In this document: positions 1 to 35,246 of the stretch, piece after piece | Layout: each line of letters starts with the position of its first letter | Position numbering within the stretch: position 1 is the stretch's first letter | From: a virus | Virus record (IMG/VR): IMGVR_UViG_3300010149_000050 | Span: 1 to 39,119 of that record | Direction: 5' to 3' (one strand) | DNA: 39,119 bases | Translations under genes and position numbers: made by a program | The notes under the pieces: model-generated | Seen by the model: only the letters and a program-made list of their open reading frames with translations | Database searches by the model: none | Told to the model about the DNA's origin: nothing

Positions 1-3000
1 GCTAAAGTTTATAGTGAATCTTTAGAGTCTTTCTTAATACCAGAAAAATTTGATAGAGTATTTAAATCATCATATGATACTTTTAAAAATACATTTAAAA
101 ATGCAAGAAATATATTTAAAAAACAAATAGAAGAATATGTTGGTATTCAGGAAAGAAATATACTATTAAATCAATTAGATAAATTAGATATTATACCAGA
201 TCCAGATCAAGTAGAATCATTTTTACTTACAGGAGATTCTAGTCAGCTACGTAATTTTTATAATGATAGTGGTGAGGTAACAGCAATTAATAATCCAGAA
301 AAGTTAAAAGATATAAATGAAAAGATTGGAATATATAATGCAACTAGACCTGATAAAGTAGAAGAAGAAATTCAGGAAGAAGAAGTAGAATTAGAAAATA
401 AAGACTTACAAGATATTTCAGAAGGTGTAGGAGTACAAGTTTCAAAAACAATTACTCCTTTATTATCTAACTCACTGAAACTTGCATATGAAGAATATTC
501 TTCTAGGGCAGCATCATTAAATCAAAAACCATTAAAATATAATGAATGGTTAAATAGTGAAGCAGGAAAAAATCATAAAGAAGCATTTTTTACAATTAAA
601 CAATTATGGGTAGCAAATGACTTATTAATTAATGCTGATAACTCATTAACAGAAGAGCAAATAAAAGCAGATGCTGGTTTAGTTGATTGGTTGAGAAGTG
701 AAGAAGGTAGAAATGATCCGGGAGTATTAGAAGTATTGAATTCTGTTAATCTAACAATTGATGAATTAATAGGTCAAAAAGAATTATTACCTGAAGAAGG
801 AAGTACAGTTAGAGGAGATACTAACAAACGTGTAGTTAGAAAAGGACCTAACGTATCAATTGTTGAAATTAAAACATTAGATTCAGATGGCAATGAAGTT
901 TTATCATATAAAATAAAAGATAACTTTGGAAAAGATATTTCACCAGAAATATTAACTTCATTAAATATTGCAGAAGATGCTTTATTTACAACATCTGAAC
1001 AAGCTCTAAATGCATTTACAAAAATTGAAGCTGCAGTTCCAGATACAACAAAATATGTATTTGATAATACCGTATTAAAAGTAGGTAATTTTGTTTATGA
1101 TAGAAATGGTAATGAGTTTATAGTATTAACCAGTCCAAAAGATATTGAGGCTAAAGGAAATATATTAGAGATAATTCCTTCAGATAAAAATTCTGATCCT
1201 AACAGATTAGATTTTATTAAAGAATTAAAACCTGGAGAGTTTGAAAACTTTTATACTTTACAAAAATTAGAGATTGTTGATTTACCAGATAATGTATCTA
1301 AGCTAGATATTAGAGATATAATACAACCATATCCACATGTTAATAGAGAAACTGGTGAGACAAATGCAAAGGCAAGAGAGCGATATGAGTTTATAATTTC
1401 TAATTTAACAGAAGAAGAAAAGGATCAATTAGTAATAGTATATAGAAAGGATCCTGAAGGAGGAACAGCTAAAGGTAAATTAACTATTGGAGATCAACCT
1501 TCTAATCCTTTAGTAGAAAATATTCAAGCTAAATCTATAATAGGGTTAGCTTTTGGTAATAGTAATACACTTAGTAGAATTAATGGTAAACTTATTGATA
1601 ATAACTTAGAGCCATCAGATTCACCAGAAGGAATATTTGCCTATTTTAAAAATGATAATTATGAGTTTGAAGGTGTATCAGATCCTATAAACTTTACTAT
1701 TGATCAAGCTAAAAATGTAATTGACTTTAGCAAAATACAAGAAGGTAAGAATATTTCTGATGAACAAAAACTAGATATTATTATTAAATCTTTTGCAAAG
1801 AATAAATTACTTAGCACATCAACCGAATCATTAGCTTCTGACTATAATGGTTTTATTCCTTTATCTGGATTATCAGAAAGTTTTACTTTAGATCAATCAA
1901 TTGATGGTTTAATTTTTGATGCTGCTAATCCGCAAAAAGCAGATGAGTTAAAATACAATGCTTCAGATGAATTTGGTAATAAAGTTATAATTCAGATCCA
2001 AGGAGAAGGAAAGAATAAAACAAGAATTGAACGTACAAATCTTCAAGATGCTGCAGCAGTTGAACTTATAAATAAAGTTAATAAAGGTTTAGAAAAAGCT
2101 GGTGAAATAGATGAGAATAATAATTTTACTAACCCTAATATTACTGAGAAGTATGCATTAGCTGTATTATTACCTAGTGGAACATATAAACTTGTTCCAT
2201 TAAAAACTGAACAGTTTAATAGTGATGAATTAAATGAATTATTTATTGGTGTAGTTGATAGAGCAATGCTCACAACACAAGAAAATTTAGATGTTGAAGT
2301 TACTGATGATACAACAGTAAAGCAATTAGAAAAAGCTAAAGAAAAAAATATTGCTTATAATAAAGAATTTAATTCTGAAATTAAAGATTCATTATTTATT
2401 TCATCATCTCTTAAAGGGTATAGATATGAACTACAAGTTAGTCCATGGGGTAAAATAAATTTACAATTAAGACAAAGTGTTGGTCAAAATAAATACAAGA
2501 CTATACAAACTGCATACTTAGGAATATCTGATTTAATGGCAGACTCATCTGCTAAAGATAAAATGGATATACTATTAGAAAAGTTTAATAATCAAGTTAC
2601 AGAAGATCAAAAAATATCATTTAATAACTTTAGAAAATCTTTTCCAATAGATGCCGGTGTTCAAGAGATTCTTGATAAAACAACAACTAATGTTCAGTAT
2701 GATGTTATTGCTAGACCAAGATTATTTATAAACGCTGATTCTGCAAGACAACAGGCTATTATAGATGCTTCAATATCTACTAATAGCGAAAGTGTAAAAG
2801 TTCCAGTTGAATCTGCTCAAGCAGCTATTGATAAACCTGAACCACAACAAGTAGAAAGAGTTGTTGAAGCTGCACCTGAAGTTGCTGAAGAATTTACACC
2901 TGATCAAAGATTAGAAAACTTAAAAGAACAACTTAATGTACTTAAAGCTGAAGTTACTAAAGATTTAACCGGTCCTGCTATAGCTAAAGCTATGAGGACA

Positions 3001-6000
3001 GATGAACGGGTAATTAAGTTAAAAGAAAAAATAAGAAAAGCAGAAGATGAATTAAATGCTGCAAATAAAATATTACCTGCAAATACAACTGAACAAGCTA
3101 ATGCTGATATTGAAGAATTTAAATCTTGGGCTAAATCAAATTTACCTGATTTTATTACTATTGATGATATAAATACATTAGGTAATAACATGAAAGCTGG
3201 CGGTGTTCGTGTTGGTGCTTTTGCATTAGGATTATATAATTTAGGTGGTGGTCTAACTATCAACGGTACTATATATACAGGAGCTACAAATCCATTTAAA
3301 TATCATGAAGGATTCCATGCTGTATATAGATTACTTTTAACAGACGAACAACAAGCAAAATATTTATCTATTGCTAGAAGAGAAGTTAGAGCTAAGTTAA
3401 GAAAAGAAGGTAAGAGCTATAGAAAAGAACTAGAAAGATTTAAAAACTCTGCAGATACATATTCTGATATGAGTGATTCAAGATTAGAAAAAGAATATCT
3501 TGAAGAATACATGGCTGATGAGTTTGAATTATTTAAACAAAATCCAAGATCTACTAAAACAGATTCTAGTATTAAATCATTATTCAATAGAATATTAGAA
3601 TGGATAAAAGCATTATTTAATTCATATACTAAGAATGAACTATTAACTCTTTTTGAAAATATAGATTCTGGTAAATTTAGAACAGCTTCTGTAAAAAATA
3701 ATAACTTTACTACAAATCTAATTGAGGGTGTATCTGTTGAAGCTAATGCATTAATTCCATATGATTTTGTTAGTGAAACAAACAAAGATGGAGACCGTAA
3801 TATAGGATATTTATATTTGGATAGTGCTATTGCAGAGCCGATGATTAGATCAATAGCAGCTACATTTTTAACAGATGTTTCATCACAAACACAAGCAAAA
3901 AAATTAAGAGAACTTGAATCAAAGTTTAAAGAAGTTGAAGAAGTTGAAGACATTACTCCAGAGGAAATTTTAAATAATATTCTTGATGAGTTTGAGTGGC
4001 TTTATAGTTTAGATAATGAGATTAATGATGATAAATCTGATATTCAAAAAGAACAACTTGAAAATGTTAGTAAATCATTTGAACTATACAGATCCGAGAT
4101 TAAAAAAGATGTAAATTCATTACTTAGTATAATAACTAAACAAAGCGCAGATCAAGAATTTGATAATGAATTTTTTGAAAGTGAAGCTGGATTAAGAACT
4201 GTTGAGCAGTTTAATAAAGATGCATCAATGATTGGTGGATTTGCTAGTCTTGCTGAAGGTATAAGAGCTTATATAGCAACTACTACATTAGAGGATGTAG
4301 ATTACTTTGGTAACAAAGAACTAAGCGAAGGTAGACCATTGATTGTTCCTGTTGAATTTATGGATGCTTATAACGGAATGTTAAAAGCTGTAAAGAACTT
4401 AAGTGATTCAAAAGAGATATTAAGGAACATGTATTACTTTGGTCAGGATAATCCAAATACAGGAGCTGTTGTAAATAGAATGCTATTAGATACTATTGGT
4501 GATAATGGCATTGAAGTTATAGAGTCTGATAATCCATTACCAGAAAAAATTAAAAATCCATTATTACTTCAAAGTATATTAAAAGGTTTTGAAAACTTTA
4601 GAGTAAACTATTTATTCATGCAACGTGATGATACAGGTGGTTCTTTAATATATTCAGCAGCAAATAGAGATGATGTTAACTCACAACTTTCAAGATGGTC
4701 ACAAGCATGGGTACAAGCATCTAAGAAAATTAAATCTGATAAAACTTTTAAAGATGGAGCAATAGAAGCAATTAATAAGTTTAGAGTTTATCTTGAAGGT
4801 ACACAGTTAATTGATGATTTACAATTAGATAGAATATCTAAAGAGACATCACAAGATTTGTTTAACTATACTGGTATAAGATTAAGCAAAAAATATATTG
4901 CTTTTAGTATAGCGTATAATAGAGAATCAAGAACTCCAAAACAAGAAACTAATTATAATGCTAATCAATATGTTTTACCTATAGATTCAGCAGATATAGA
5001 ACAATTGCAAAGATCTATAGAAAGTAATGGTGATATATTTGATCCTGGAATAGAAGGTATGTCTTCACGTTTAAATAAAATGAGTGAAAACAATGCTGAG
5101 TTTGATGAAACAGTTGGTGCACCAGTATTTAAAAATCCAAATGGAGATTTGGTATATGCTCATCAGCTTCCAACATTCCACTTAAAACAAGTTGAAGCAT
5201 TAAATAATACTGAAGAACTAAATGATCTTAGAGATGGATACTTAGAAAATAATTATTTATTAAATGATCCGGCTTTCATAAAACTTTCTGATAAGAGTAA
5301 ATTAAGAGTAACTAGAATTGCAGGTAGTTTAGTAGGAAAATTAAATGAGACCGAAGAGGAAATAAATGCAAGACTAACAGGTATATCAGACAGAAGTGCA
5401 TATGGAGACTTTACTCCTAGAGAACTTGTATTATCACTTTTAAATTTTTACACTTCTAATTATAATACAAAGAGTGGTAAAGTTGAAACAGTTGAATATG
5501 AGGATAATTTAACAGATCAAACTATGACTGCGGCACTAGCTCCAGTTCTAATAAGAGTAATGGAGGCTTCAAATACTGGAGACTTATTATCACTTCCTGT
5601 TATAAAAACTGTAGAGTTAGTAAAAGGAAAAACTAAATTAACTGAAAAAGCACTTAATATTTATTTAGAACAAATAGATAATGAGTTTAAAAGAATACAA
5701 CGTGAGTCAAATTCTGAAACTAAATCTGAAGAAAGATTAGGTTATAATGATACTGATACTGGAAGAGCATTTAAATTTTATAATACAGGACTATTATTAG
5801 ATCAAAACATCAAAGAAGGTTTAGAAGAAAAAGCAAAAACTAATTTTGATATATCACTTAAAGAAGCATTATCATCATTAAATAAAACTGAAGGTCAATT
5901 TAAAAAAGATCTAGAGAAGAAATTAAATGATGAGTTTGAAAAGTTTGATCAGTTATTAGTAGAGTTAGGTGCAAAAGATTTAACAAGTAATGCAATTAAT

Positions 6001-9000
6001 AAAGGTTTATCTTCTGCTCCAGAATTAAATTTAATTAATGATAAAGAATATAATCTTAAACAAATATTCTTTAATGATTGGATCAATACTACAGCAATAA
6101 ATGAAGTGTTACTTGGAGATCAAGCTGTATCATTAAAAGATGCAGTTGATAAAACTAAAAGAGGTAAAGGTCAAAATGGTGCTTTCTATAGTTCAGAAAG
6201 TAATTTTACAGCACCTGAGTATGGTATAAATCATCCTAATAAAGAGATTAGTTATGTTGCTTTAGAAGAACCGATTGGAGTATCATCAATTGGTGGTAAG
6301 AGTATTGATAGAGCTGATGGTCAACTTTATATGACAACCAAAGCATTTAGATATACAAGATTTGGTATTGGTAAACTTACAGCTGCTCAAGCAGAATTAT
6401 TAGATAGAGTTGAAAGAGGAGAGTATATTCCTTCTTACTCAATATTTGAACCTGGAGGTTATGCTTCAAATAAAGAAATGCTAAACAGTAAGAAGATGGT
6501 TTACTTTGATGGTAAAACATATTTAAAGATGTCAGCATTTGTACTAACTCCTGAGTTAACTTCTAACCCTGATGGTACAGCTAAACCTTCCAGAGAAGCA
6601 TTACACAACTTAAGAATTAAACTTGAAGCTATTGAAAAAGAAACAAATACAATAGCCATGGCTTCTCCTTTAAGTGCTTCTAAAATGATGAAGCAAAAAG
6701 TAAATTCATTAACTACGCTTGATAATACAGAAGAGTTTGAAAATGGTTATTCTACATTAGAAACAAAATACTTTGGATTACAAGTATTAAACCCATCTAA
6801 TAAATTAGAAACAACAGATCCTACTCAAATTAAAGCTCTTGTTACTTCTGAACAAGATGACTCTGTAGAAGTTGAAGGTCTTAATATGACTGTAGGTAAA
6901 ATAAGAGAAGAATATAATAAGGCTACCAATAGAAGGCTTGTTTTAAAATATAAGAATAACAGAAATCTTATTTTTACTTTTGATAAGGCAATGAAAGAAG
7001 TTGCTGAGTTTAAAATTACAGGTAAGATAACACCTAACTTATCTATATTTTTAGATTATGCTACTGAGTCACTTAAAGCTAGTAAGTCTAGTAGTAATCT
7101 TTTAGAGTTCTTTTCTAAACAAAACGGTGAACAAAAGTATAATTTAAATAATCCTATTACTGTAAATAAGTTTGAAGAATTATTTTTAAGCTTCTTTAGT
7201 AAAGGTGTATTATCAGAAAAAATTCCTGGAGAGACTTTATCTTTAGTTTCTGATTTTGGTATGAAAGTATACAGAAGAGTATATGAAGTAGATGCTGATG
7301 GTAATCCAGTTAGATCAGAAGTAATTAGAGAAAAGCAATGGGAAAAACTTGAAGATAAACCAGAAGTATTTACTTTAAGTAATTTAACTAATGATCAAAT
7401 ACCTGCAGAAGGCATAGTAGTATTAGATAGATTAAGAACAGGTTTGATGGAATACACTAATCCTAAAGATCCTAAAACAGCTACAGGTCAACGATATAGT
7501 GAAGGTCTTGTTCCAGCGCACCATGCATCTGTTAGAAATCTTATTGAAAATACAGCTGCTAATATTCCTGAAGTTATATCAAAAATGTTTGCTGTACGTA
7601 TACCTTCTCAAGATAATCACTCTACAATGAATGTAAAGCTTGTAGATTTCTTACCTACTGTAAATGGTTCTAGTGCAATGTTCCCACAAGAATTGGTTGA
7701 GATAGCTGGATCTGACTTTGATATTGACAAGGTATTTACTCAGATAAAAGAATTCTATGTAGAGGATAATAAATTTTATGAGTATGGAGCAACAGAAGGA
7801 AGAGAGTATAAAGACTACATAAAGTATGTAAATGAAAAAGTAAATGAGAATACTCCATATGCTAAAGGATATAGACTATATGAGACCCAAGGTTTAAATA
7901 TAGAAGATTCATATACAGATGCTGAAATGCTAGCTTTAAATGATTTAGGATTTACCGATAAGTCTATAAAAGCTTTAACAGCATTAGGTCTTCCTGTAAG
8001 TAAAAAACAATATGAAGATTATAAATCTAAGTATGGAGAACCGTATGAAGCAGCATACAATAATGAAATACTAGATTATAAGTATGCACTGATGGGTAAT
8101 AGAGGTGTAACAGAAGCAAAAGAAGGAACACCTATATCATATACTCCTGCAGGTTTGGAAATATTAACAGATAAAGAAACTCAAACTGGAATACTGGAAG
8201 TATTAGAAGAACTTTTACCAGGGTTGAAAGAAAAAAATAGAGAGGATAATGTAGATGTGGATAACATACTTGGTAAGATTAAAGCATGGATGGCAAATAA
8301 AGGTGCTGCAATTGGAGCAATTGTATTACCTAATACATATCTAAGTTTATTAACTGAGTATAAATCAAAACTAAAAGGACCGGCTCCTGTATTTAACGAT
8401 AGAGCTTATAATGATTTTGGAGTATTAAATGAAATACTTAGTGATGGTACTAAAGGTGATAGAAAGCAAGATATAATATCTTCTTTAATTACTGCAATGA
8501 CAGACAATGCCAAAGAACGTTTAGCAGCAAAACTAGGTTTAAACAGACATTCTCTTAGTATTGTTGCAAATGCTACAGCATTAGGTATACCGCTTAAAAC
8601 TAGTTTGTTACTTGTCAACAATCCATTGATAACATCTATATATGATCAAGCCTTTAATAAAAAAGAAAAAACAGATCCGGGTGTTAAGAATATTCTTAAA
8701 CAACAGATTGATAATCTAACTGAAGTAAGGAAAATAAAACCTGCATCAATAAGTGATGATATATTAATAAACTACTATAATGAAGAGTTTCCTGTAGAAA
8801 AAACTGAAGAAGTTATAACCGAGGAAGCACCGGTAGAGGAAGTTGTTAAAGAAGATAAACCTGATGGAAGAGCTGAAGATATAAAATTAGGTATTCTTTT
8901 AGAGTTCCAAAAACTACTTGACATTAAAGACTTTACATCTAAGATGTCTGCTGTTACTACATTATCTAATGGATTAGGTAAAAATATAGCAGATATAAAT

Positions 9001-10629
9001 AAAAGAGTAAATGATATATCTGATCTTTTTGCAAAAGGAGCACTTATAGATTTAAATAAAGTTTTTAGAGGTTCTACTTGGCAGTCTGGTTATCTAAAAA
9101 TATTTGAACAATTTTATAATGATATAGCACCTGCTGCCTTTGTATCAGGTACAGAAAACTTTAGATCTATATTGAATGATTTATATAAGAGTATAAAAAC
9201 AAATACACTAGATTTTACTGAAGAAGTTGAATCTAAGATATCTAGAGATTTATTATCTTATTTGACAATTAAAGCTTATCAGAAAAACAAATTAGATACT
9301 AATTCACAATCTGTAGCAACATTGAATAATTCTTATATATATCCTACTGTAGAAGGTGGACAGTATAAAACTATCACTGATACTATAAATACATTAAGAG
9401 AACAGGAGGATTTAAAAGATAATTTCTTTGTTCAGAATTTTGCAATAAGCAATCCTGCTGATGATCAATCTAATACAACAGGTTTAGAATTACTTGAAGC
9501 AAATACTTTTAGAAATTTAAATCAAGCTCAAATGATTGATTTGCAAACATCATTTGCTAGATTATATGGCTCTGTTAAATATAAACAAGATGCTATAGAT
9601 ATAGTAAATTATATGATGGTTAAAGATGGATTACAAATAGGCTATGCGTCTTTAATACAAGCTATCTCACCATTTATGATGGAACAATATTTAAATCATG
9701 TTGATACAGCATCTAATGCATTGAGAAGTAATAACAATGAACTTATTACATCTACATTTGGATTAAACTTTGAAGATCTCAAATCTGAATTTATAGAAGG
9801 TTATTTGCTATCTAATAGAAGTAATACTTTATTGAACAATTATAATTTTACTACTACATTAACGGGTGATCTTATAAAACCTGAAGATGTAAATATAGTA
9901 GATGATACATTAACTGCTAAATCTGAAGATGTAAATCCTCTTTTTGTTCGTGTTACCGATACATTTGAAGGTAGAGATTTTACAAAAGTAACTTATAAAA
10001 CATATAGGCTTACAGGTGCGGATAAAGATGTTGCTACATATACCGAAGTAGAAACTACAGGTTCTAATCAACAGAATCCTATAGGATTTATGTTTGGTGA
10101 TAGACCTACATATAATCAAGTAAGAGAGTATGTAAAAAGTAGAGAGAAGAAAGAAGATACAGTTGAGGAAGAACAACAACTAGATAGAATAGATCAAGTA
10201 AAGCAGCGAGCTGCACAAGCACCAGGCGCTAATATTGAAGTTACTAGTGATGGTATTGTTAAAATCAATGATAAAAATATTGCTGATATTACACCAACTG
10301 AAAAAAATCTTAAGGTTGAAAAGGTAGAAGAATATACGGATATTGATCCAGATCTTATTGATGAACTTGATAATATTAATGAAGATGCTCAACAACTAAC
10401 ATCGGATCTATTTAATGAACTTCAAAAATTCAATGAAGAAATAAATGATAATTATACAATCATTGAAAACTTTTGGGATAGTAATATACAATTTAACAAA
10501 GAGATTAAAAATTCTCTGAGAGAAAACAATAATATATTATCTTTGGAAGACTTGATTAAAGAATATGAAGACGGTATTTATAAAGATCAAGAGGAGTTTG
10601 TAGAACAGATTAAAAAATGTAACTTATAA
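1..10629 (+). CDS. Giant virion RNA polymerase-like protein with zincin domain (5' end outside window)
   Basis: The frame is open from base 1, with no in-frame ATG before the TTG at 691, so the gene is truncated at the left edge and encodes at least 3542 residues. Numbering from base 1, residues 1102-1106 read HEGFH, a zincin metallopeptidase HExxH motif followed by an acidic helix. Residues 2572-2576 read DFDID after AGS; about 40 residues upstream is VRIPSQ (R2533, P2535). That order matches the NRxPTLHR...NADFDGD block of RNA polymerase beta-prime and the DxDxD motif of crAss-like and YonO-like single-chain polymerases. A lysine-rich stretch (K2172, K2176, K2228, K2231) could be the partner double-psi barrel. 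By analogy with phage phi14:2 it may be packaged in the virion and transcribe early genes. The polymerase call rests on motifs only; the zincin could process the polypeptide. Confidence 0.72.
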   Translation, partial: AKVYSESLESFLIPEKFDRVFKSSYDTFKNTFKNARNIFKKQIEEYVGIQERNILLNQLDKLDIIPDPDQVESFLLTGDSSQLRNFYNDSGEVTAINNPEKLKDINEKIGIYNATRPDKVEEEIQEEEVELENKDLQDISEGVGVQVSKTITPLLSNSLKLAYEEYSSRAASLNQKPLKYNEWLNSEAGKNHKEAFFTIKQLWVANDLLINADNSLTEEQIKADAGLVDWLRSEEGRNDPGVLEVLNSVNLTIDELIGQKELLPEEGSTVRGDTNKRVVRKGPNVSIVEIKTLDSDGNEVLSYKIKDNFGKDISPEILTSLNIAEDALFTTSEQALNAFTKIEAAVPDTTKYVFDNTVLKVGNFVYDRNGNEFIVLTSPKDIEAKGNILEIIPSDKNSDPNRLDFIKELKPGEFENFYTLQKLEIVDLPDNVSKLDIRDIIQPYPHVNRETGETNAKARERYEFIISNLTEEEKDQLVIVYRKDPEGGTAKGKLTIGDQPSNPLVENIQAKSIIGLAFGNSNTLSRINGKLIDNNLEPSDSPEGIFAYFKNDNYEFEGVSDPINFTIDQAKNVIDFSKIQEGKNISDEQKLDIIIKSFAKNKLLSTSTESLASDYNGFIPLSGLSESFTLDQSIDGLIFDAANPQKADELKYNASDEFGNKVIIQIQGEGKNKTRIERTNLQDAAAVELINKVNKGLEKAGEIDENNNFTNPNITEKYALAVLLPSGTYKLVPLKTEQFNSDELNELFIGVVDRAMLTTQENLDVEVTDDTTVKQLEKAKEKNIAYNKEFNSEIKDSLFISSSLKGYRYELQVSPWGKINLQLRQSVGQNKYKTIQTAYLGISDLMADSSAKDKMDILLEKFNNQVTEDQKISFNNFRKSFPIDAGVQEILDKTTTNVQYDVIARPRLFINADSARQQAIIDASISTNSESVKVPVESAQAAIDKPEPQQVERVVEAAPEVAEEFTPDQRLENLKEQLNVLKAEVTKDLTGPAIAKAMRTDERVIKLKEKIRKAEDELNAANKILPANTTEQANADIEEFKSWAKSNLPDFITIDDINTLGNNMKAGGVRVGAFALGLYNLGGGLTINGTIYTGATNPFKYHEGFHAVYRLLLTDEQQAKYLSIARREVRAKLRKEGKSYRKELERFKNSADTYSDMSDSRLEKEYLEEYMADEFELFKQNPRSTKTDSSIKSLFNRILEWIKALFNSYTKNELLTLFENIDSGKFRTASVKNNNFTTNLIEGVSVEANALIPYDFVSETNKDGDRNIGYLYLDSAIAEPMIRSIAATFLTDVSSQTQAKKLRELESKFKEVEEVEDITPEEILNNILDEFEWLYSLDNEINDDKSDIQKEQLENVSKSFELYRSEIKKDVNSLLSIITKQSADQEFDNEFFESEAGLRTVEQFNKDASMIGGFASLAEGIRAYIATTTLEDVDYFGNKELSEGRPLIVPVEFMDAYNGMLKAVKNLSDSKEILRNMYYFGQDNPNTGAVVNRMLLDTIGDNGIEVIESDNPLPEKIKNPLLLQSILKGFENFRVNYLFMQRDDTGGSLIYSAANRDDVNSQLSRWSQAWVQASKKIKSDKTFKDGAIEAINKFRVYLEGTQLIDDLQLDRISKETSQDLFNYTGIRLSKKYIAFSIAYNRESRTPKQETNYNANQYVLPIDSADIEQLQRSIESNGDIFDPGIEGMSSRLNKMSENNAEFDETVGAPVFKNPNGDLVYAHQLPTFHLKQVEALNNTEELNDLRDGYLENNYLLNDPAFIKLSDKSKLRVTRIAGSLVGKLNETEEEINARLTGISDRSAYGDFTPRELVLSLLNFYTSNYNTKSGKVETVEYEDNLTDQTMTAALAPVLIRVMEASNTGDLLSLPVIKTVELVKGKTKLTEKALNIYLEQIDNEFKRIQRESNSETKSEERLGYNDTDTGRAFKFYNTGLLLDQNIKEGLEEKAKTNFDISLKEALSSLNKTEGQFKKDLEKKLNDEFEKFDQLLVELGAKDLTSNAINKGLSSAPELNLINDKEYNLKQIFFNDWINTTAINEVLLGDQAVSLKDAVDKTKRGKGQNGAFYSSESNFTAPEYGINHPNKEISYVALEEPIGVSSIGGKSIDRADGQLYMTTKAFRYTRFGIGKLTAAQAELLDRVERGEYIPSYSIFEPGGYASNKEMLNSKKMVYFDGKTYLKMSAFVLTPELTSNPDGTAKPSREALHNLRIKLEAIEKETNTIAMASPLSASKMMKQKVNSLTTLDNTEEFENGYSTLETKYFGLQVLNPSNKLETTDPTQIKALVTSEQDDSVEVEGLNMTVGKIREEYNKATNRRLVLKYKNNRNLIFTFDKAMKEVAEFKITGKITPNLSIFLDYATESLKASKSSSNLLEFFSKQNGEQKYNLNNPITVNKFEELFLSFFSKGVLSEKIPGETLSLVSDFGMKVYRRVYEVDADGNPVRSEVIREKQWEKLEDKPEVFTLSNLTNDQIPAEGIVVLDRLRTGLMEYTNPKDPKTATGQRYSEGLVPAHHASVRNLIENTAANIPEVISKMFAVRIPSQDNHSTMNVKLVDFLPTVNGSSAMFPQELVEIAGSDFDIDKVFTQIKEFYVEDNKFYEYGATEGREYKDYIKYVNEKVNENTPYAKGYRLYETQGLNIEDSYTDAEMLALNDLGFTDKSIKALTALGLPVSKKQYEDYKSKYGEPYEAAYNNEILDYKYALMGNRGVTEAKEGTPISYTPAGLEILTDKETQTGILEVLEELLPGLKEKNREDNVDVDNILGKIKAWMANKGAAIGAIVLPNTYLSLLTEYKSKLKGPAPVFNDRAYNDFGVLNEILSDGTKGDRKQDIISSLITAMTDNAKERLAAKLGLNRHSLSIVANATALGIPLKTSLLLVNNPLITSIYDQAFNKKEKTDPGVKNILKQQIDNLTEVRKIKPASISDDILINYYNEEFPVEKTEEVITEEAPVEEVVKEDKPDGRAEDIKLGILLEFQKLLDIKDFTSKMSAVTTLSNGLGKNIADINKRVNDISDLFAKGALIDLNKVFRGSTWQSGYLKIFEQFYNDIAPAAFVSGTENFRSILNDLYKSIKTNTLDFTEEVESKISRDLLSYLTIKAYQKNKLDTNSQSVATLNNSYIYPTVEGGQYKTITDTINTLREQEDLKDNFFVQNFAISNPADDQSNTTGLELLEANTFRNLNQAQMIDLQTSFARLYGSVKYKQDAIDIVNYMMVKDGLQIGYASLIQAISPFMMEQYLNHVDTASNALRSNNNELITSTFGLNFEDLKSEFIEGYLLSNRSNTLLNNYNFTTTLTGDLIKPEDVNIVDDTLTAKSEDVNPLFVRVTDTFEGRDFTKVTYKTYRLTGADKDVATYTEVETTGSNQQNPIGFMFGDRPTYNQVREYVKSREKKEDTVEEEQQLDRIDQVKQRAAQAPGANIEVTSDGIVKINDKNIADITPTEKNLKVEKVEEYTDIDPDLIDELDNINEDAQQLTSDLFNELQKFNEEINDNYTIIENFWDSNIQFNKEIKNSLRENNNILSLEDLIKEYEDGIYKDQEEFVEQIKKCNL

Positions 10630-10635
10630 TAAACT

Positions 10636-13600
10636 ATGGCTAAGTGTCCAAATAGAAATACAGCAGAGTATAAATCTCTACAGGAAGTATATAAATCAGA
10701 AATACAAACTGATAATATAATCAATAAGTGGCAAGATTTAAATAACACAGATGTATTTCCATCTGTTGTACAAGCAAAAGAGTTTGTTAAAAATAACAAA
10801 GCAGCATTTTCATTAAAGCAAAAAGAGTTCTCTGAAAACTTATTAGCAAATCTTGTAGAAAAAAGAATACTACATAGTTACCAGGGTTTTTATTTAGTTA
10901 ATAATTCTAATCCTGCTACGTTTAAATACGATGAAGAATTCTTACAAGCTAATTTAAAAAGACTTACAAGGTATTTAGAAATTAATAATATCCCTTTAAA
11001 CTCTGTAACAATTACAAGAACACCTAAAAGCTATAAGGTGCAAGTTATAAATAATGTATTTACACCTAAAGATTTATTAGAAAAGTCTAGATCTTGGGAT
11101 ACACCACGTGCTAGAGCTGTTGTATCACATTTAAGAAGATTGTTTCCACAGGTTGGTGTAAAGCTTATGACTGAAGCTGAAGCAGAAGCTATTTGGAATG
11201 ATGAAAATAAAGTTCCTAAGTGGGCAAAAACAGATGTAAGTTTTGATCAGGTTAATTCATTTTTCTATGAAGGTCTGGCTGTATTAATAAAGGGTAGAGT
11301 AACAGATGAAACTGCAATAGAAGAAATACTACATCCATTTGTTGATGCAATTAAAGCAGATAATCCTGAGTTATTTGAAGGCTTATTAAAAGAAGCTAAG
11401 AAAAACTTTCCTGAAATGAATCAAGCAATAAATGCTGCATATTCTGACAGTAAAGGATTTACACCTCTAGATAGAAATTTAGAGATGGTTACTCAAGCTC
11501 TTTCTAGACACTTTAATAATGAGTATGAAAAAACTCCAACAAGAAGTTTCTTAACTAAAATTAAAGAAGTATTAGATTGGTTCTTAGATGTTATAGGTAA
11601 TCTTAGTGAGTACTTAACAGGTAAACCTTTTACAGCAAAATCTATAACTGCTACATCTTCTTTAACAGATATAGCAAAACTTTTAAATACATCTGATATA
11701 GAATTTAAATTAGATAGTAAAGTAGATAGTAGAGTTAGATATTCATTATCTCCTGAAAAAGATAAAGTTGTAAGAAAAGTTTTAAAAGAGTCTAATGATA
11801 TTCAAAAAGAATTTATAAAACGTTTATTTCATACTGCTAGATCATCAGAAGATATTATTGGGGACCTATCAGCAAGTAATAAAAACTCTGATTATAATGG
11901 AGATATAGTTGCTTATAATAAAAAAGATAATTCATACATGAATATATCAACAGGTGAGGTTTATTCTTCTACATCTGATTATATAGGTCTTAGTAATAAT
12001 GAGAATGATGCTCTTAATCTAGAAGTAAATGATGATATAAAAACTTTATTTGATGCTGTTGTTGGTAATGAAAGTTTTGAAGATGCTTCTTCAAGGTTAA
12101 CAACTTTGAGTGAAGAAGCTGCAAAAGAAGTGGTTGATTCTTTACAAGAACAACTTTTAGGAAATAATAATCCTATTATTCCTGATGGTGCTGTTGCATT
12201 ATCTAATGTTGTTGTGTTTGATCCAAATACTAAAACTGCAGGAACTGTAGATCTATTAGTTATTGATAAGACAGGTGTTGTTAATATTGTTGATTTAAAA
12301 GTAAGTAAAGACTCTATATATGGTGAACAAGGAAAGAAAGCATATTCTGAAGAATTACATCCATTAAAAAATGGTAGTGCTTTAAAAGAGAAACACGGTA
12401 TATTAAAAATGACTAACTCTTCTCAAAATAGCATTGAAGTAAACATGTTAAAAAGAATGCTTGATAACATGGGATACAACACTAATAGAACTTTAACAGG
12501 AGCTCAGACATTTCATGTTAAAGCTGATGGTGATAAGATTGAGGTAGATGGTGGAGTTGAGTTTATAAACGACACTAAGAATATGACATATGTGGATATG
12601 TTAATACCACAAAATGTTGATCAATATTCTAAAGACCAATTAGATGATATAATTGATAATTCTGATGATGGAATATTTGATGGTTCTAAGTATGAAGAAG
12701 ATCAAGAAAAACTAGCTGAAGAAATAGATCCTTTAGTATATCCTGAGTATAATTCTATAATGGGTATACTAGAAGATTATAGAATTGCTCTAGTAGATCA
12801 ACAAAAGGCTTTAAAAGTAATTGAACGATCGGTATTTAGAGACATGTCCAAAGAGGAACTACGTGACGAAATTGCTAGTACACTAGCATATATTTCTGCA
12901 AATATTGATAATGGACCAGCATCTAGATCTGCTACATATACATATCTTCTTCAAGGTGCTTTACGCCAAATGAAAAAATTTGCTAATTATGTTCAAGATC
13001 CTGCAAATTTTGGTAAAGATGAATACATAACCTATACTTTAAATTTCAATAGATTTTTAAGCACATTTGAACCTTTATTTTTAATACAAGATTCTCAAGA
13101 TCATAATGCTACACAAAGAGCATTAATACGTCAGATGGATATATTAAGAAATAAGATAAAAGGAACAGGTGTAAGAAAGAAAGAAAATGAAACTGAAGAA
13201 GAAAGAATATTTAGAGAAGGATTAGTAAATGATGCTATAATTAATTTTGTAAAAGAAAAAATTAGAGAAAGATCTAATAATGACTGGGGTGGTAAGCAAA
13301 GTGTATTTACAGAACAAGATTTAGATGATCTTGTAAGAAGATCACCTGATATATCTCAACTTGCTTTATTAACTCAAGATATGGCTACTCAATCTGATGC
13401 AATGCTTTCTGTTATGGATAAAATATATAAAACCCAAAAACAAAAGGTACTTGATTTAATTGATCAGCGTAATAAACTTGTAATTAATAGTGCTAATAAG
13501 TTAATTAAATTATATCCAAATCTAAAAAGAAATCAGCTTTATGACTTCATGTCTATATTTGATAAAGATGGTAATTTTACAGGAAGATATATAAAACCTA

Positions 13601-16329
13601 TAGGTGAGCTATATAATAAAATACAAGACGATCTAAGATTTCAACTATTTGATGATACAGGTTTACCTTATAAATACAGGGATGTTACAGATTTATCTAC
13701 AGCATCTCAAGAAGATATTCAATATAATATTGATTTAGCTAATAAGAAAAAAGCATTTGCAGATTTTTTTAGAGCAGAAGAAATAGATGAAGATGGTAAT
13801 CTTGTAGATGGTGAGTATCATTATTATACAGATGAGTTTAAGAAAGCTAGAGATATACATGAGTTTTGGCAGGTAAGTGCTAATGGTAAATATGGAGAGT
13901 GGAAAAAAAGAAATAGCATTTCAGCTAGAGATTATGCTGTATATAGAGCAAAGTATTTTGAATCTTCTACATATGATCAACCACAAAGAGTTAAAGGTAA
14001 TCCAACAGGTGTAGTTGTAAAAAATGTTAAGAGTGAATTTCCTAAAGTTGAATATAGAAAAGTTAGAGAAATAACAAAGTCTGGTAAGGATATGCGTGAT
14101 AAAAAGTACGCAGAACTTATGGATCCTACTAAAACTGATGCGGGTACATTAGCTAGAAGAGAGTTCTATAACTTATTTATTAAAATGTATGAGGAAGATT
14201 TACTAGAAAAGATTCCTGAATATCAAAGAGATCAAATGATGGGTAGAGTCCCCACTATTAAAGATAACTTATTAAGTGATCTAAAGGATAAACCAAACAT
14301 AATATCTAAGATGTGGAGTGATATTACAACATCTGTAAAAAACTTAACTCAAGAAACATCAACTATGAAAAAAGTCATGCTTGATGAATCAGGTAACTTT
14401 ACAAATCAACTACCAGTATTCTATACAGGAAGGCCAAGAATGGATGGTGAATTAGAAGAAGTAGAAAAGAAGATGGCTTTTGTTGAAGAACAAAGAGTAA
14501 AAGGTCTTATAACACCCGATAAGTATAATGCACAAATTAAAGAGCTTAGAGGAGAATATAATAGAATATATAATAAACCATCAACAGGTGAACTAAGTAG
14601 AGATTTAGGATCTAGTTTAATAAAGTTTAATGCTATGGCTACACACTATGAAGTTATGGGTGAAGTAGAAGATACATTAAATGCTTTTGTTAAAGTATTA
14701 GAAAGAAGAGAATATGACTTACCTGTTGCTACAGGTCAAAGTTTTGTTTCAAGAACTAAAGAAGGCGTTCTTAAAGCTGTAGGTTTTACACGAGATCAAG
14801 GTTTAGAAGCTAATGCTGTAAGAAGAGCTAAAAAATTCATGTCAATGGTTTTTTATGATAATGAACTAGCAAATAAAGGCATGTTTGATAAAATTGCAAA
14901 AGAAATAACTGGTGCAACATCATTAACATGGGTAGCATTTAACCCTATGGGTAACTTTAATAACTATGCTCTAGGCAGAATAAATAATAATATTGAAATG
15001 CTAGGTCAAAGATTTTTTAGTAAAAAAGCATATTTAAGAGCAACTAAAGAATTTAATACAAATGCTATTCCTGGAATGTTTGAAAGAATAGGAAGTGGTG
15101 CAACTGATTTAGTAGATATTGCTACACTAGGTAAACTAGGTTTAAAAAAATCTGATTATGATGCCGATAAAGCAAATAATAAATATGAAGCTGTAACTCA
15201 ATATTTTAGAATGATGGATCCTGATACAGATATACGTGAGAATAGTTCTAAGTATGATGATTCATCTTTATGGTCAAGATTTAAGGAATGGGGTTATGTA
15301 ATGCAGGATGCTGCTGAATATAATGTACAATCTAAAGTAGGTGTTGCAATGTTAATGGATACTATTATAAAGAACAGTAAAACAGGAGAAACATTATCCC
15401 TATATGATGCATTACATTTTGATGCTAAAACTAATACCGTTTCTTTATTAGAAGATTATGATATTGTTGTAGATAAAAAAGGAAATAAGATTGCTGATTA
15501 TAACGACAATTTTAGATATGATTTAAGAAATCAAATAAGGGAAGTTAATAAACAAATTCATGGTAATTATGCTAAAGAAGACAGAATGGTTCTTCAGAGT
15601 TATGCTCTTGGTAACTTAATAACACAATTTAAAAAGTGGGTTGCACCAGCATTAAGAGCTAGATATCAAAGAGAATATTTTGATCAAAATTTAGGATGGA
15701 TGGAAGGAAGATACCTATCATGGTGGAAGTTTACAAACTATGCAACTAAAGAATTTATTAAAGGTACTAGAGATATTAAAGCTTTAAAAGCAGGTTTTCT
15801 TGAACAATATGGATATACCGGTGAAGGTGGTAATCTAGATAAAAGAGCATTAAATAAATTACAAGGATTTTATAGAACTGTAGGTGAAATTGCAATTCTA
15901 TCATCAGTTTTTGTATTAAACTCTCTCATGGATGGATTATTATCAGGTGATGATGACTCAGATACAATGAAGAGATTAAAAAATCTTGCAAGATTACAAG
16001 CAGATAGAACTAAAGATGAAATGTTAACATTTATCCCAGTACCTGCAGGCATTGAACAAAATTATCAAATGTTCTCTAATCCTATAGCATCACTAAAACT
16101 ATTAAGAAATACATCAAAAGCTTTACAATTAAGTCTTACAACACCAGTTGCCTATATTACTAAAGGCGAAGATGCTTTTTATAGAGATTCAGATTATGTT
16201 TACCAAAACAAGCCATATAAAGGCATGTTAAAAGTAAATAAACAATGGCAGAGATCATTACCAGCTATAAGAACATACAGTAAATATATAGATGCTATTA
16301 AGAAACAAGATTTTGAGATAGGATTCTAG
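10636..16329 (+). CDS. Giant protein with degenerate zincin and PD-(D/E)XK nuclease-like domains
   Basis: This 1897-residue protein starts 6 bp after the giant polymerase-like gene and is probably co-transcribed with it. Residues 225-236 contain E229-E230-I-L-H233, which aligns in style with a zincin HExxH helix whose first histidine is glutamate, so this peptidase fold is probably inactive. Residues 536-555 read GTVDLLV... (D539) and then VDLK (D553, K555). Near Q597 comes a helix resembling the QxxxY helix of RecB/Cas4-like PD-(D/E)XK nucleases. The remaining ~1250 residues are mostly predicted helical and charged, with one strongly hydrophobic segment at about 1750-1771. A structural or ejected internal virion protein acting on DNA or the cell envelope is an inference from size and neighbour. 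The stop is TAG, one base from a convergent gene. Confidence 0.65.
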   Translation: MAKCPNRNTAEYKSLQEVYKSEIQTDNIINKWQDLNNTDVFPSVVQAKEFVKNNKAAFSLKQKEFSENLLANLVEKRILHSYQGFYLVNNSNPATFKYDEEFLQANLKRLTRYLEINNIPLNSVTITRTPKSYKVQVINNVFTPKDLLEKSRSWDTPRARAVVSHLRRLFPQVGVKLMTEAEAEAIWNDENKVPKWAKTDVSFDQVNSFFYEGLAVLIKGRVTDETAIEEILHPFVDAIKADNPELFEGLLKEAKKNFPEMNQAINAAYSDSKGFTPLDRNLEMVTQALSRHFNNEYEKTPTRSFLTKIKEVLDWFLDVIGNLSEYLTGKPFTAKSITATSSLTDIAKLLNTSDIEFKLDSKVDSRVRYSLSPEKDKVVRKVLKESNDIQKEFIKRLFHTARSSEDIIGDLSASNKNSDYNGDIVAYNKKDNSYMNISTGEVYSSTSDYIGLSNNENDALNLEVNDDIKTLFDAVVGNESFEDASSRLTTLSEEAAKEVVDSLQEQLLGNNNPIIPDGAVALSNVVVFDPNTKTAGTVDLLVIDKTGVVNIVDLKVSKDSIYGEQGKKAYSEELHPLKNGSALKEKHGILKMTNSSQNSIEVNMLKRMLDNMGYNTNRTLTGAQTFHVKADGDKIEVDGGVEFINDTKNMTYVDMLIPQNVDQYSKDQLDDIIDNSDDGIFDGSKYEEDQEKLAEEIDPLVYPEYNSIMGILEDYRIALVDQQKALKVIERSVFRDMSKEELRDEIASTLAYISANIDNGPASRSATYTYLLQGALRQMKKFANYVQDPANFGKDEYITYTLNFNRFLSTFEPLFLIQDSQDHNATQRALIRQMDILRNKIKGTGVRKKENETEEERIFREGLVNDAIINFVKEKIRERSNNDWGGKQSVFTEQDLDDLVRRSPDISQLALLTQDMATQSDAMLSVMDKIYKTQKQKVLDLIDQRNKLVINSANKLIKLYPNLKRNQLYDFMSIFDKDGNFTGRYIKPIGELYNKIQDDLRFQLFDDTGLPYKYRDVTDLSTASQEDIQYNIDLANKKKAFADFFRAEEIDEDGNLVDGEYHYYTDEFKKARDIHEFWQVSANGKYGEWKKRNSISARDYAVYRAKYFESSTYDQPQRVKGNPTGVVVKNVKSEFPKVEYRKVREITKSGKDMRDKKYAELMDPTKTDAGTLARREFYNLFIKMYEEDLLEKIPEYQRDQMMGRVPTIKDNLLSDLKDKPNIISKMWSDITTSVKNLTQETSTMKKVMLDESGNFTNQLPVFYTGRPRMDGELEEVEKKMAFVEEQRVKGLITPDKYNAQIKELRGEYNRIYNKPSTGELSRDLGSSLIKFNAMATHYEVMGEVEDTLNAFVKVLERREYDLPVATGQSFVSRTKEGVLKAVGFTRDQGLEANAVRRAKKFMSMVFYDNELANKGMFDKIAKEITGATSLTWVAFNPMGNFNNYALGRINNNIEMLGQRFFSKKAYLRATKEFNTNAIPGMFERIGSGATDLVDIATLGKLGLKKSDYDADKANNKYEAVTQYFRMMDPDTDIRENSSKYDDSSLWSRFKEWGYVMQDAAEYNVQSKVGVAMLMDTIIKNSKTGETLSLYDALHFDAKTNTVSLLEDYDIVVDKKGNKIADYNDNFRYDLRNQIREVNKQIHGNYAKEDRMVLQSYALGNLITQFKKWVAPALRARYQREYFDQNLGWMEGRYLSWWKFTNYATKEFIKGTRDIKALKAGFLEQYGYTGEGGNLDKRALNKLQGFYRTVGEIAILSSVFVLNSLMDGLLSGDDDSDTMKRLKNLARLQADRTKDEMLTFIPVPAGIEQNYQMFSNPIASLKLLRNTSKALQLSLTTPVAYITKGEDAFYRDSDYVYQNKPYKGMLKVNKQWQRSLPAIRTYSKYIDAIKKQDFEIGF

Positions 16330-24026: not shown

Positions 24027-24860
24027 TTAAAATATATAACGGATTGTATTTAATGGAAAGAATTGTTTATATATTTCTTTAAACTCATTTAACAATCTTG
24101 TTTTATGTACGAGAGGATACCTCATAACTCCAGATTTATTTTTTACTTCTCTTGAATATTTCATTAACTCTTTTGCTGGTTCTTCTGCCTTAGCCATCTG
24201 ATTTACATGATTGGTTAATGCTATAACTTCACACTTGTTCGTTCCTGCTACCTGCTTCACTCCATTAAAGAGATTATAATACTCCTCCTTCCAACCGGGG
24301 TAGAACACTAAAGGGCTATAATTACAATGTACTTCCCATCCTAGATCTTTTAATCTATTTATATCTTCTATTCTAGAAGAAATCTTTTGCATCTTAGGTT
24401 CTAATATATCTGAATACTTCTGAGGCATCAAGCTTACTCTTACCCTTGGTTTCTTGTTGAACTTTTTTACATTAATGTTCAACAAACTTGGATACTTAGT
24501 AGCCATTGTACTATTCAACCGTGGGTGATCATCATATCTTTTAAGATAATCAATCAACGGTTCTGGCATATGTTTTTGCATCAGAACTAAATCTGAATTA
24601 CATGCAACATCTACCATAGTATATATAGGGTCCTGTTGATCAGGTACTTTAGTAAATCCTTTTTCCCATTTAACAACAGAATGAAATATTTCATCAACAT
24701 TCTTGTTAACAAAAACTCTATGTCCATTATACCTGGACATATAACAATAAGTATCTACACAGCCTCCAAAACATCCGTAGATAATATTGGGAGCTATACA
24801 GTTAGCGCTATTATTGTTGTCTTTTGTAACAAGAGTTTTAGTCTCTTGTACTTTTATCAC
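24027..24860 (-). CDS. Spore photoproduct lyase-like radical SAM protein
   Basis: The 277-residue product contains a cysteine cluster C30-F-G-G-C34-V-D-T-Y-C39-Y, spacing CX3CX4C, near its N-terminus. Further on it reads RVSLMPQKYSDILEPKMQKI and then GWEVHCNYSPLVFYPGW. The order resembles spore-photoproduct lyase-like proteins (SLMP / RIEDINRLKDLGWEV / SP..FYPGW). SPL enzymes use an iron-sulfur cluster and S-adenosylmethionine to repair a UV thymine lesion; a phage-encoded DNA-repair or DNA-modification role is plausible. The usual spacing is CX3CX2C, so the two extra residues are odd. The gene starts with GTG and overlaps the preceding thioesterase gene by 23 bp; an in-frame stop just upstream excludes an earlier start. 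Confidence 0.72.
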   Translation of the reverse strand: MIKVQETKTLVTKDNNNSANCIAPNIIYGCFGGCVDTYCYMSRYNGHRVFVNKNVDEIFHSVVKWEKGFTKVPDQQDPIYTMVDVACNSDLVLMQKHMPEPLIDYLKRYDDHPRLNSTMATKYPSLLNINVKKFNKKPRVRVSLMPQKYSDILEPKMQKISSRIEDINRLKDLGWEVHCNYSPLVFYPGWKEEYYNLFNGVKQVAGTNKCEVIALTNHVNQMAKAEEPAKELMKYSREVKNKSGVMRYPLVHKTRLLNEFKEIYKQFFPLNTIRYIF

Positions 24861-25239
24861 TATATTTTATTCTTACTTTTTCAGCTATAGGTATAGCATC
24901 ATTATTTTCATCTATCCTTACAAATCTTATATTTGTTGATAACACAACAGATTGTATACCAGAATAGACATTATGAGCTCTAGCTTCTAGGTAAAAGGTT
25001 ATAGATGTATTACCTACATTCACAACCTTACCATATATTTTTATAAGCTGACCTTCTTTAGCAGGTTTTTTAAAGATACATTTATCTATCATTACTGTTA
25101 CCATCCGGGGTGTATCACATACTTCCATAGCATATGCTGCACCAGCGGCATCTAACCAAGCTAAAAGCTTTCCTCCAAATAGATTAGCATGAAATCCTAG
25201 ATCTGATTTTTTTATTGGATGTGTTGTTATTAACTCCAT
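24838..25239 (-). CDS. Acyl-CoA thioesterase-like hotdog protein
   Basis: This 133-residue hotdog-fold protein reads HANLFGGKLLAWLDAAGAAY (about residues 17-36), the central-helix motif of YciA/acyl-CoA hydrolases, with N19 and D30 as the likely catalytic pair. A beta-rich segment follows (MVTVMIDKCIFKKPAKEGQL). Family enzymes hydrolyse acyl-CoA thioesters, and hexamers are typical. It looks full length. Its stop region overlaps the next gene by 23 bp, and its ATG overlaps the upstream gene's stop by one base, so it belongs to the phage operon. It is probably an auxiliary metabolic gene acting on host lipid or CoA metabolism; the substrate is unknown. Confidence 0.85.
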   Translation of the reverse strand: MELITTHPIKKSDLGFHANLFGGKLLAWLDAAGAAYAMEVCDTPRMVTVMIDKCIFKKPAKEGQLIKIYGKVVNVGNTSITFYLEARAHNVYSGIQSVVLSTNIRFVRIDENNDAIPIAEKVRIKYSDKSTRD

Positions 25240-33693: not shown

Positions 33694-34083
33694 TTATAAT
33701 TCTGCCGAGAAATTACATTCTCCTTCTTCTTCAATACACTGAAGTATTTGTCTTCCAAGACTATAGTCAAAGTAATTACTTAACTTTTCATCTTTTAATA
33801 ATTTCATTCCAGCCCTTTCAAGATATGTTGATAAAGGAATATCTTGTTCATATGGTTTACAACCAAATAGGTCAATATATGCTAGTATAGAAGTTTTATA
33901 TTCTCCAAAACTTTCTTCAAGTTCTGTTAGTCTAGCTTTAACTTCTGAGATATTATCTGTGCTAAAGTAATATTCTAAGTATTGAGGCATTTGTCCTTCA
34001 ACACCAAACTGATCTGCTGCATCACTTGCTTGTACACCAAAGGCAAACTTACCTTCAATATCACCTGTATAATATCTACCCAT
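33694..34083 (-). CDS. Small conserved phage protein between the VWA and AAA genes
   Basis: This 129-residue protein starts MGRYYTGDIEGKFAFGVQAS and continues DAADQFGVEGQMPQYLEYYF. I recall an MGRYYxGDIEGKF...FGVQ family encoded by phages, often near replication and AAA genes; its function is not known to me. The rest is acidic and helical with cysteines (C95, C115, C123). Its ATG overlaps the VWA gene stop by one base, so the two are probably translationally coupled and may work together. Confidence 0.82.
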   Translation of the reverse strand: MGRYYTGDIEGKFAFGVQASDAADQFGVEGQMPQYLEYYFSTDNISEVKARLTELEESFGEYKTSILAYIDLFGCKPYEQDIPLSTYLERAGMKLLKDEKLSNYFDYSLGRQILQCIEEEGECNFSAEL

Positions 34084-35246
34084 TAGTTTAACTTAATTAC
34101 TTGTCCTGGTAACTCATCATTCATATCAGAAATACTACTAAGAACCCATAACGTATTCTTAGGACAGTTATCTGGAGAGTATGCTTCACCATCTGTTAAA
34201 TATATTAGAGCTGTATATTGCCCTTTATTTTCATTAAAATGATCAATTACTGGTTGGAAACTTGTTCCACCACGACCATGTATTTCCCAATTATGTTTTG
34301 GATTAAATTCTTTAACACTATTAAGACTTGTATCACACTGCGCTACTGTAATCTTATGACCTGTTTTATGCATATGGCATAATTCAGACATGAACTCTTT
34401 AAGTTCATCATTATTTACAGATCCGCTTGTGTCAACACCAACAAGAATATTATTTTTAAATTTAATCTTTAACCCAGGATTACCAGAATATCTCTTATTA
34501 TATTTACGTCTTAGTTTCTTTGTATATATTATACTAGAATTACCTATAAACCTTCTAAGATATCCTTTCCAATCAAACTTAGCAGGTTCAACATGCATTA
34601 ATCTATTAATAACCTCTGAAAGTTCTCCAGGAATGTTGCCATTTTTCTTTATTGTTGTTTCAGCTACATCCTTTAATTGATGTTCTATCTGCTTCTGAAC
34701 AAGTTTTTTCTCTGCTTCAGATAAATCATCAAACTCATCCCATGTAGCATGATCATATGGTGTTTCACCATTCATTTCATCCATTAATGAATCTAATGAT
34801 GGAGATGTACCATCTTGCTGTGCTTGACTTAATATATCATAATACTCTTTTGTACCTGCTTTAACTGGTAAATTAAGTTCTGGAAAACTTGATAACAGTA
34901 ATCCACCTTCAGGAAGTTTACTTTCAAGTATATATTGATTGATTTCTAAGTCAGCTGCTATATTAAACAACTTTGCATTGGGATATCTATCTCTAATCAC
35001 CAAATGCCCAAATGCAATATGTAATAGCTCATGTTTTATTAAACCAAATCTATGATCTTCAGATAATTCATTGAAGAAGTTCGGATTAATTGCTAACTGC
35101 ATTCCTATACCATGTTTACTTACACCTGCTGTAGGTAAAGCATCAGTATATTTCTTATTTATACCAATCAAAAAAAGCCCGTAAAAGGGCTCTGTAAAAA
35201 TTAAATTTTTGGTTGTTCTAGCAACCGCGTCTTGTATATTAATCAT
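34083..35246 (-). CDS. Zincin metallopeptidase-VWA fusion protein (DUF2201-like)
   Basis: The 387-residue product has an N-terminal zincin with KHELLHIAFGH (H72, E73, H76, H81) and a downstream ADLEIN helix likely supplying another ligand. A long acidic linker (about residues 140-200) leads to a C-terminal VWA-like domain with VGVDTSGSV (D272, S274, S276), the metal-ion-dependent adhesion site. This matches the DUF2201 metallopeptidase plus VWA architecture that pairs with MoxR/CobS-type AAA+ ATPases, encoded here two genes downstream. The partner set may remodel or process a host or phage protein. An intrinsic-terminator-like hairpin lies inside the 5' coding region. The gene overlaps the upstream 103-aa gene by 8 bp. 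Confidence 0.87.
   Translation of the reverse strand: MINIQDAVARTTKNLIFTEPFYGLFLIGINKKYTDALPTAGVSKHGIGMQLAINPNFFNELSEDHRFGLIKHELLHIAFGHLVIRDRYPNAKLFNIAADLEINQYILESKLPEGGLLLSSFPELNLPVKAGTKEYYDILSQAQQDGTSPSLDSLMDEMNGETPYDHATWDEFDDLSEAEKKLVQKQIEHQLKDVAETTIKKNGNIPGELSEVINRLMHVEPAKFDWKGYLRRFIGNSSIIYTKKLRRKYNKRYSGNPGLKIKFKNNILVGVDTSGSVNNDELKEFMSELCHMHKTGHKITVAQCDTSLNSVKEFNPKHNWEIHGRGGTSFQPVIDHFNENKGQYTALIYLTDGEAYSPDNCPKNTLWVLSSISDMNDELPGQVIKLN
35170..35191 (-). terminator. Intrinsic-terminator-like hairpin inside the VWA coding sequence
   Basis: On the minus strand AGCCC-TTTTAC-GGGCT is followed directly by a run of seven T residues, which is the textbook rho-independent shape. It codes for residues about 19-26 (EPFYGLFL). 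It would act on transcripts entering from the upstream genes before the AAA-VWA cassette. Confidence 0.5.

Follow-up and report, generated by a model that had tools for sequence, protein, structure and literature searches.

The stretch of viral DNA analysed here, referred to as the window, spans 39,119 nucleotides and begins inside a giant gene: positions 1-10629 of the plus strand form a single frame of 3542 aa, open at its 5' end, that carries HEGFH (residue 1102) and SDFDID (residue 2572). This frame of at least 3542 residues with its two motifs was the core of the original prediction and was confirmed; a longer contig (L001), identical to the window over 19,000 bases, supplies the 5' end and the ATG start of a 4462-aa protein, so that window residue n corresponds to full-length residue n+920. 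The features considered below, in window coordinates, are as follows.

1..10629, plus strand: giant cargo protein AB (A module plus B module, the predicted virion RNA polymerase); 5' end outside the window, full protein 4462 aa
3013..3885, plus strand: zincin-like domain at the end of module A; conserved block, hhalign to the crAss001 gp47 domain with probability 98% and E 9e-14
3304..3318, plus strand: HEGFH motif, residues 1102-1106 (full length 2022-2026), from conservation
3502..3507, plus strand: Glu-Glu, residues 1168-1169, probable third zinc ligand on a second helix; 98% conserved, model helix 155-176
3853..4155, plus strand: predicted A/B joint, a poorly conserved linker lacking cysteine; conservation dip at full-length 2201-2300, and spacing to DFDID compared with separate RNA polymerase genes
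5938..8730, plus strand: RNA polymerase core, modelled residues 1980-2910; AlphaFold pLDDT 84.7, pTM 0.83, best PDB match 6VR4 with E 6e-24
7714..7728, plus strand: predicted catalytic DFDID motif, residues 2572-2576, from motif conservation and the model
10618..10620, plus strand: TGT codon for the only cysteine of the 4462-aa AB, third residue from the C-terminus (...IKKCNL*)
10636..16329, plus strand: cargo protein C, 1897 aa, homologue of crAss001 gp49 (blastp E 2e-27) and phi14:2 g065; one cysteine in total
10645..10647, plus strand: TGT codon for the only cysteine of protein C, residue 4 (MAKCPN...)

After C the coding strand switches, and ribonucleotide reductase, DNA polymerase, primase, Sak4-like and PhoH genes follow. 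The gene block with the A and C proteins adjoins this divergent replication block, and the same layout, a cargo block beside a divergent replication block with ribonucleotide reductase, is found in phi14:2 after g066 and g065. The structural block that is the signature of the order Crassvirales (TerL, portal and MCP) lies outside the window. On the minus strand of the replication block, a spore-photoproduct-lyase-like gene (24027-25239) stands beside a 4HBT thioesterase gene. Another minus-strand gene of the window (34083-35246) combines Pfam DUF2201 metallopeptidase-like and VWA-like domains under a PHROGs family label of HNH endonuclease.

Pfam, PHROGs and PDB sequence searches with the whole giant protein returned nothing, and its homology came from tblastn against crAss-like genomes, where residues 2401-3000 matched 97 records of crAss-like phages, including phi14:2 g066, p-crAss gp44 and crAss001-type gp50. 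By blastp with the full protein, residues 3020-3507 matched crAss001 gp50 (E 2e-13) and residues 1872-2152 matched crAss001 gp47 (E 5e-7). Module A is a homologue of crAss001 gp47, and module B of crAss001 gp50 and phi14:2 gp66. The AlphaFold model of the polymerase core was built from 42 homologues (pLDDT 84.7, pTM 0.83), and Foldseek ranked 6VR4, the structure of phi14:2 gp66, as its best and only significant PDB match (E 6e-24, probability 1.00, 997 columns), with RDR-type polymerases and P23-45 gp96 far below. The model thus appears to share the phi14:2 gp66 fold of two double-psi barrels in one chain, as judged by comparison of the whole fold. The DxDxD motif occurs in AB in a context of the YRIP...GSDFD(I/V)D type, and DFDID (model residues 593-597) falls in a loop just ahead of the strand at 598-603. 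Given these sequence matches together with the modelled 6VR4 match, we identify this part of the giant protein as the virion RNA polymerase of a crAss-like phage, with A joined to its N-terminus; the counterpart of A is a separate protein in other crAss-like phages (gp47, gp45, gp32 and g067). The phi14:2 polymerase gp66 is known to be packaged in the virion and to transcribe early genes (cited in PMC7886860); by analogy with crAss001 and phi14:2, the polymerase of the window phage would be packaged in the capsid, ejected ahead of the DNA and used to transcribe early genes.

The RNA-polymerase-like character originally proposed for the protein is therefore well supported, and several properties singled out as unusual turned out to be ordinary. 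DFDID had been read as a variant motif; phi14:2 gp66 itself carries DFDID, at 1361, and we dropped this reading, DFDID being the usual crAss-like motif. Neither the size nor the linked protease sets the protein apart, since A and B are as a rule fused in a large environmental clade, where most of 82 loci in one scan had both parts in one frame of 4,300-4,850 aa, with HEXXH 1,450-1,760 residues ahead of DFDID; zincins near crAss RNA polymerases had, moreover, already been annotated.

In 57 non-redundant homologues, conservation is 98% for HEXXH and for the two Glu some 65 residues beyond it and 100% for DFD-D, which argues that neither HEGFH nor DFDID is a chance match. The zincin-like domain has both elements of a gluzincin-type site, namely HEXXH on one helix and a Glu on another. 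In its model (pLDDT 67) the helices bearing HEXXH and Glu are well modelled, and the region ahead of the active-site helix, where a zincin would have its three-stranded sheet, is of low confidence; the model had no Foldseek match and no PDB fold match, the profile match to the Pro-Pro endopeptidase 6fpc was weak (E 0.015), and Pfam gave nothing solid on the domain. The embedded zincin of the original prediction therefore stands as a strongly conserved HEXXH...E site, and the zincin fold was not confirmed. The domain is a putative zincin-type metallopeptidase, which may release the modules of a fused protein or cleave a target in the host. No homology was detected between the zincin of AB and those of p-crAss gp45 and phi14:2 g065.

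The original prediction also offered, as a testable idea, that the zincin may process its own chain; in its specific form, which is independent of the cysteines discussed below, the zincin would cut AB at the A/B joint and free the RNA polymerase. The 98% conserved site sits just before the predicted joint (3853..4155, where other crAss-like phages have their gene break), and HEXXH at the end of A was found in 86/104 fused loci against 13/46 unfused ones, although this association is confounded by ancestry. Autoprocessing by zincins of injected phage proteins had already been put forward in 2017 (PMC5512222). However, phages that encode A and B in two genes retain a zincin (crAss001 gp47, p-crAss gp45 and crAss002 gp32), and in others one lies within protein C; as HEXXH in unfused phages is found either where A ends or close to where C begins, the zincin must have some role besides the separation of A from B. 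The N4 virion RNA polymerase, which likewise has an MPTase domain, is packaged without being cut (PMC5512222). We regard self-processing as possible but rather doubtful. In phages without a zincin in A, protein C often has an HEXXH domain near its start (e.g. L003 14778-19043, and many other loci).

A feature that the original prediction missed, and the new element here, is the placement of cysteines in the giant protein and its neighbour. AB and C together hold two cysteines in 6359 residues, both at the facing ends (random-placement p 1.4e-6). A cysteine lies 2-5 residues from the C-terminus in all 54 complete non-redundant AB relatives, with a mean of 1.0 cysteine per protein over the set, and 78/79 downstream proteins carry an N-terminal cysteine, nearly always their sole one; exactly two cysteines in about 6300 residues were counted in 55/66 A-B|C systems. 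No internal cysteine is conserved in AB homologues, including the A/B joint region. The rule holds at every break in the known phages below, where positions are given in brackets and counted from the C-terminus when negative.

phi14:2: g067 (-1), then (3) g066 (-2), then (3) g065
crAss001: gp47 (-3), then (5) gp50 (-9), then (5) gp49
p-crAss: gp45 (-2), then (3) gp44
cr4_1: gp26 (-4), then (3) gp27
DAC15: A (-3), then (5) B (-1), then (4) C

The annotated start of crAss002 gp33 (L007 11750-24487) looks wrong, and an ATG 32 codons downstream gives MSCTPS, which fits the family. A literature search of limited coverage turned up no paper that describes terminal cysteines in the cargo of crAss-like phages.

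To cover other crAss-like groups as well, 192 non-redundant crAss-like loci were surveyed with mechanical gene calls. At breaks between the RNA polymerase gene and the next gene, a C-terminal cysteine upstream and an N-terminal one downstream occurred together in 156/164 cases, with neither in four and only one in four, two of which were wrong start-codon choices. Breaks upstream of the RNA polymerase gene were concordant, with both cysteines or neither, in 77/84 cases (Fisher p 4e-14). B carried its C-terminal cysteine in 164/168 cases where B and C are separate versus 0/15 where they are fused, and additional breaks bring new cysteine pairs with them, within A (L246 and L289), within B (L086), at B/C (L229) and within C (L287). 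As a control, non-cargo proteins encoded on the opposite strand of these loci had 1.5% cysteine, with a cysteine in the last five residues in 9% and in the first eight in 6%. Almost every chain break in A-B-C thus has a cysteine on each side, wherever it is located, the rest of the chain is nearly cysteine-free, and the outermost ends of the chain rarely or never carry a cysteine.

The real exceptions to the pairing rule are L104, L250 and L113. Some loci tolerate 6-23 internal cysteines, so the purge of cysteine is not universal; in L093, L095 and L104 the RNA polymerase protein has 13-23 cysteines and still keeps the terminal ones. Shared ancestry inflates the survey counts: only four pairs of independent B/C changes were available, all of them concordant, and A/B pairs labelled by length alone came out at about 6 in favour and 1.5 against, A/B labels by length or by upstream ORF being unreliable and the phylogenetic pair tests underpowered. 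The case for the cysteines rests on the concordance at breaks and on the new break sites. The pattern also extends to Leptolyngbya phage Lbo-JY46 (L330, PP438436.1 42492-83685), which infects a cyanobacterium and has A and C homologues with no adjacent DxDxD RNA polymerase; the terminal pair at its A|C break comprises the only cysteines in 4300 residues.

These observations make it very probable that the terminal cysteines mark a physical joint between consecutive proteins. The best overall explanation, to which we assign a probability of about 0.6, is that the cargo is joined head to tail, probably by disulfides, as an ejection train. The window would then encode the transcription cargo of a crAss-like phage, with A and its zincin-like end fused to B and followed by C, and the facing cysteines would bond, most likely as an inter-chain disulfide, into one covalent thread of fixed order and 1:1:1 stoichiometry that could be pulled through the narrow tail. 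Purging cysteine elsewhere in the chain would prevent incorrect bonds, and the subunits would be released by reduction in the host cytoplasm. Gene fusion, such as that at the A/B joint here, would be an alternative coupling without a bond, interchangeable with a cysteine pair. We infer a disulfide as the favoured, if far from certain, form of the coupling.

Several published and annotated data are relevant to this train. Virions of crAss001 contain gp45, gp46, gp47, gp49 and gp50, their cargo must pass constrictions of <50 A, probably partly unfolded (passage N-terminus first was argued for gp45), and disulfides are present in the virion tail (PMC10172136); phi14:2 g065-g067 were annotated from virion MS/MS. 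The N4 ejection proteins lack cysteine (gp50, with 3342 of 3500 aa read, gp51 and gp52), in keeping with cysteine being harmful in threaded proteins. Against a disulfide stands the assembly of virions in a reducing cytoplasm, many of the hosts being anaerobes, so that the bond would have to form late or be catalysed.

The main rival to the disulfide is a joint that is not covalent, in which the terminal cysteines form part of a shared metal site or of a buried tail-tail docking contact. It accounts equally well for the pairing at breaks and the loss on fusion, but each side offers one cysteine, with no conserved His, Asp or second Cys nearby in the tails, and the removal of cysteine elsewhere is left unexplained; we consider this reading unlikely. 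Less probable still, and in our view improbable, is that the terminal cysteines act as separate tags, each recognized on its own protein, for instance in packaging or turnover. Every tagged protein is indeed a homologue of virion cargo, yet cysteines are rare at first-in-chain N-termini and never occur at the C-termini of C proteins last in the chain (0/124), and complete A-B-C fusions, which also need packaging, lack terminal cysteines: the 5642-aa frame of L118 (722-17662) has no cysteine, and the 5677-aa frame of L153 (1232-18265) has one, which is internal. These two frames are the largest proteins in the survey. Finally, a DNA- or mRNA-level constraint at overlapping stop/start sites, suggested by gaps of a few bases at most breaks, was rejected as hardly credible, since the cysteine pair persists where A is encoded on the other strand (crAss001, cr128_1 and DAC15) and across gaps of 350-530 nt.

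With the cysteine-coupled train as the preferred reading, its scope may be wider than the window. It seems somewhat likely that, throughout this order of phages and in one cyanophage beyond it, ejected proteins are linked through single terminal cysteines into a train releasable by redox change, in which disulfide and gene fusion are interchangeable. In crAss-like and N4-like phages, the ordered exit of very large folded proteins by way of a narrow tail still awaits an explanation (PMC10172136, PMC12633501), and if cysteines couple the proteins, the answer would be a simple one, written in the sequence and open to testing on cultured phages. The terminal cysteine is also an easy marker for members of the chain and for the correction of gene starts.

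The coliphage N4 virion RNA polymerase (gp50), compared here along with the polyvalent proteins, is likewise a giant ejected polymerase with an HEXXH domain (PMC12633501, PMC5512222), but it is of the T7 type, unrelated to the crAss-like enzyme, and no terminal cysteine pairs were seen. Phage phi14:2 resembles the window in the RNA polymerase fold (gp66, 6VR4), DFDID, the A-B-C order (g067, gp66, g065) and terminal cysteines at the breaks, whereas its A, B and C virion proteins are encoded by three separate genes, its A (g067) lacks HEXXH, and a different HEXXH domain lies in g065. In PhiCrAss001 the virion-borne gp47, gp50 and gp49 correspond by homology to A, B and C, and gp47 shares the zincin-like domain of A; these are separate genes, with gp47 on the other strand, and gp50 has one extra internal cysteine. 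In p-crAssphage, gp45 is annotated 'RNAP associated protein fused to zincin protease', so the link between zincin and RNA polymerase block was already known; a cysteine pair spans gp45|gp44, as in the window, and the fusion is B-C rather than A-B. The gut phages cr4_1 (KNV51_gp26), cr50_1 (KNV26_gp059) and cr55_1 (KNV27_gp070) encode the same zincin-RNA polymerase fusion of about 4,500-4,800 aa, annotated as hypothetical protein or DNA helicase (the latter for cr50_1 gp059, L334 1058-15382, 4774 aa), with a C-terminal cysteine facing an N-terminal one in the next gene. DFDID, the A-B fusion, a zincin near the crAss RNA polymerase and the autoprocessing proposal are thus known already, and what is new is the pairing of terminal cysteines at the breaks.
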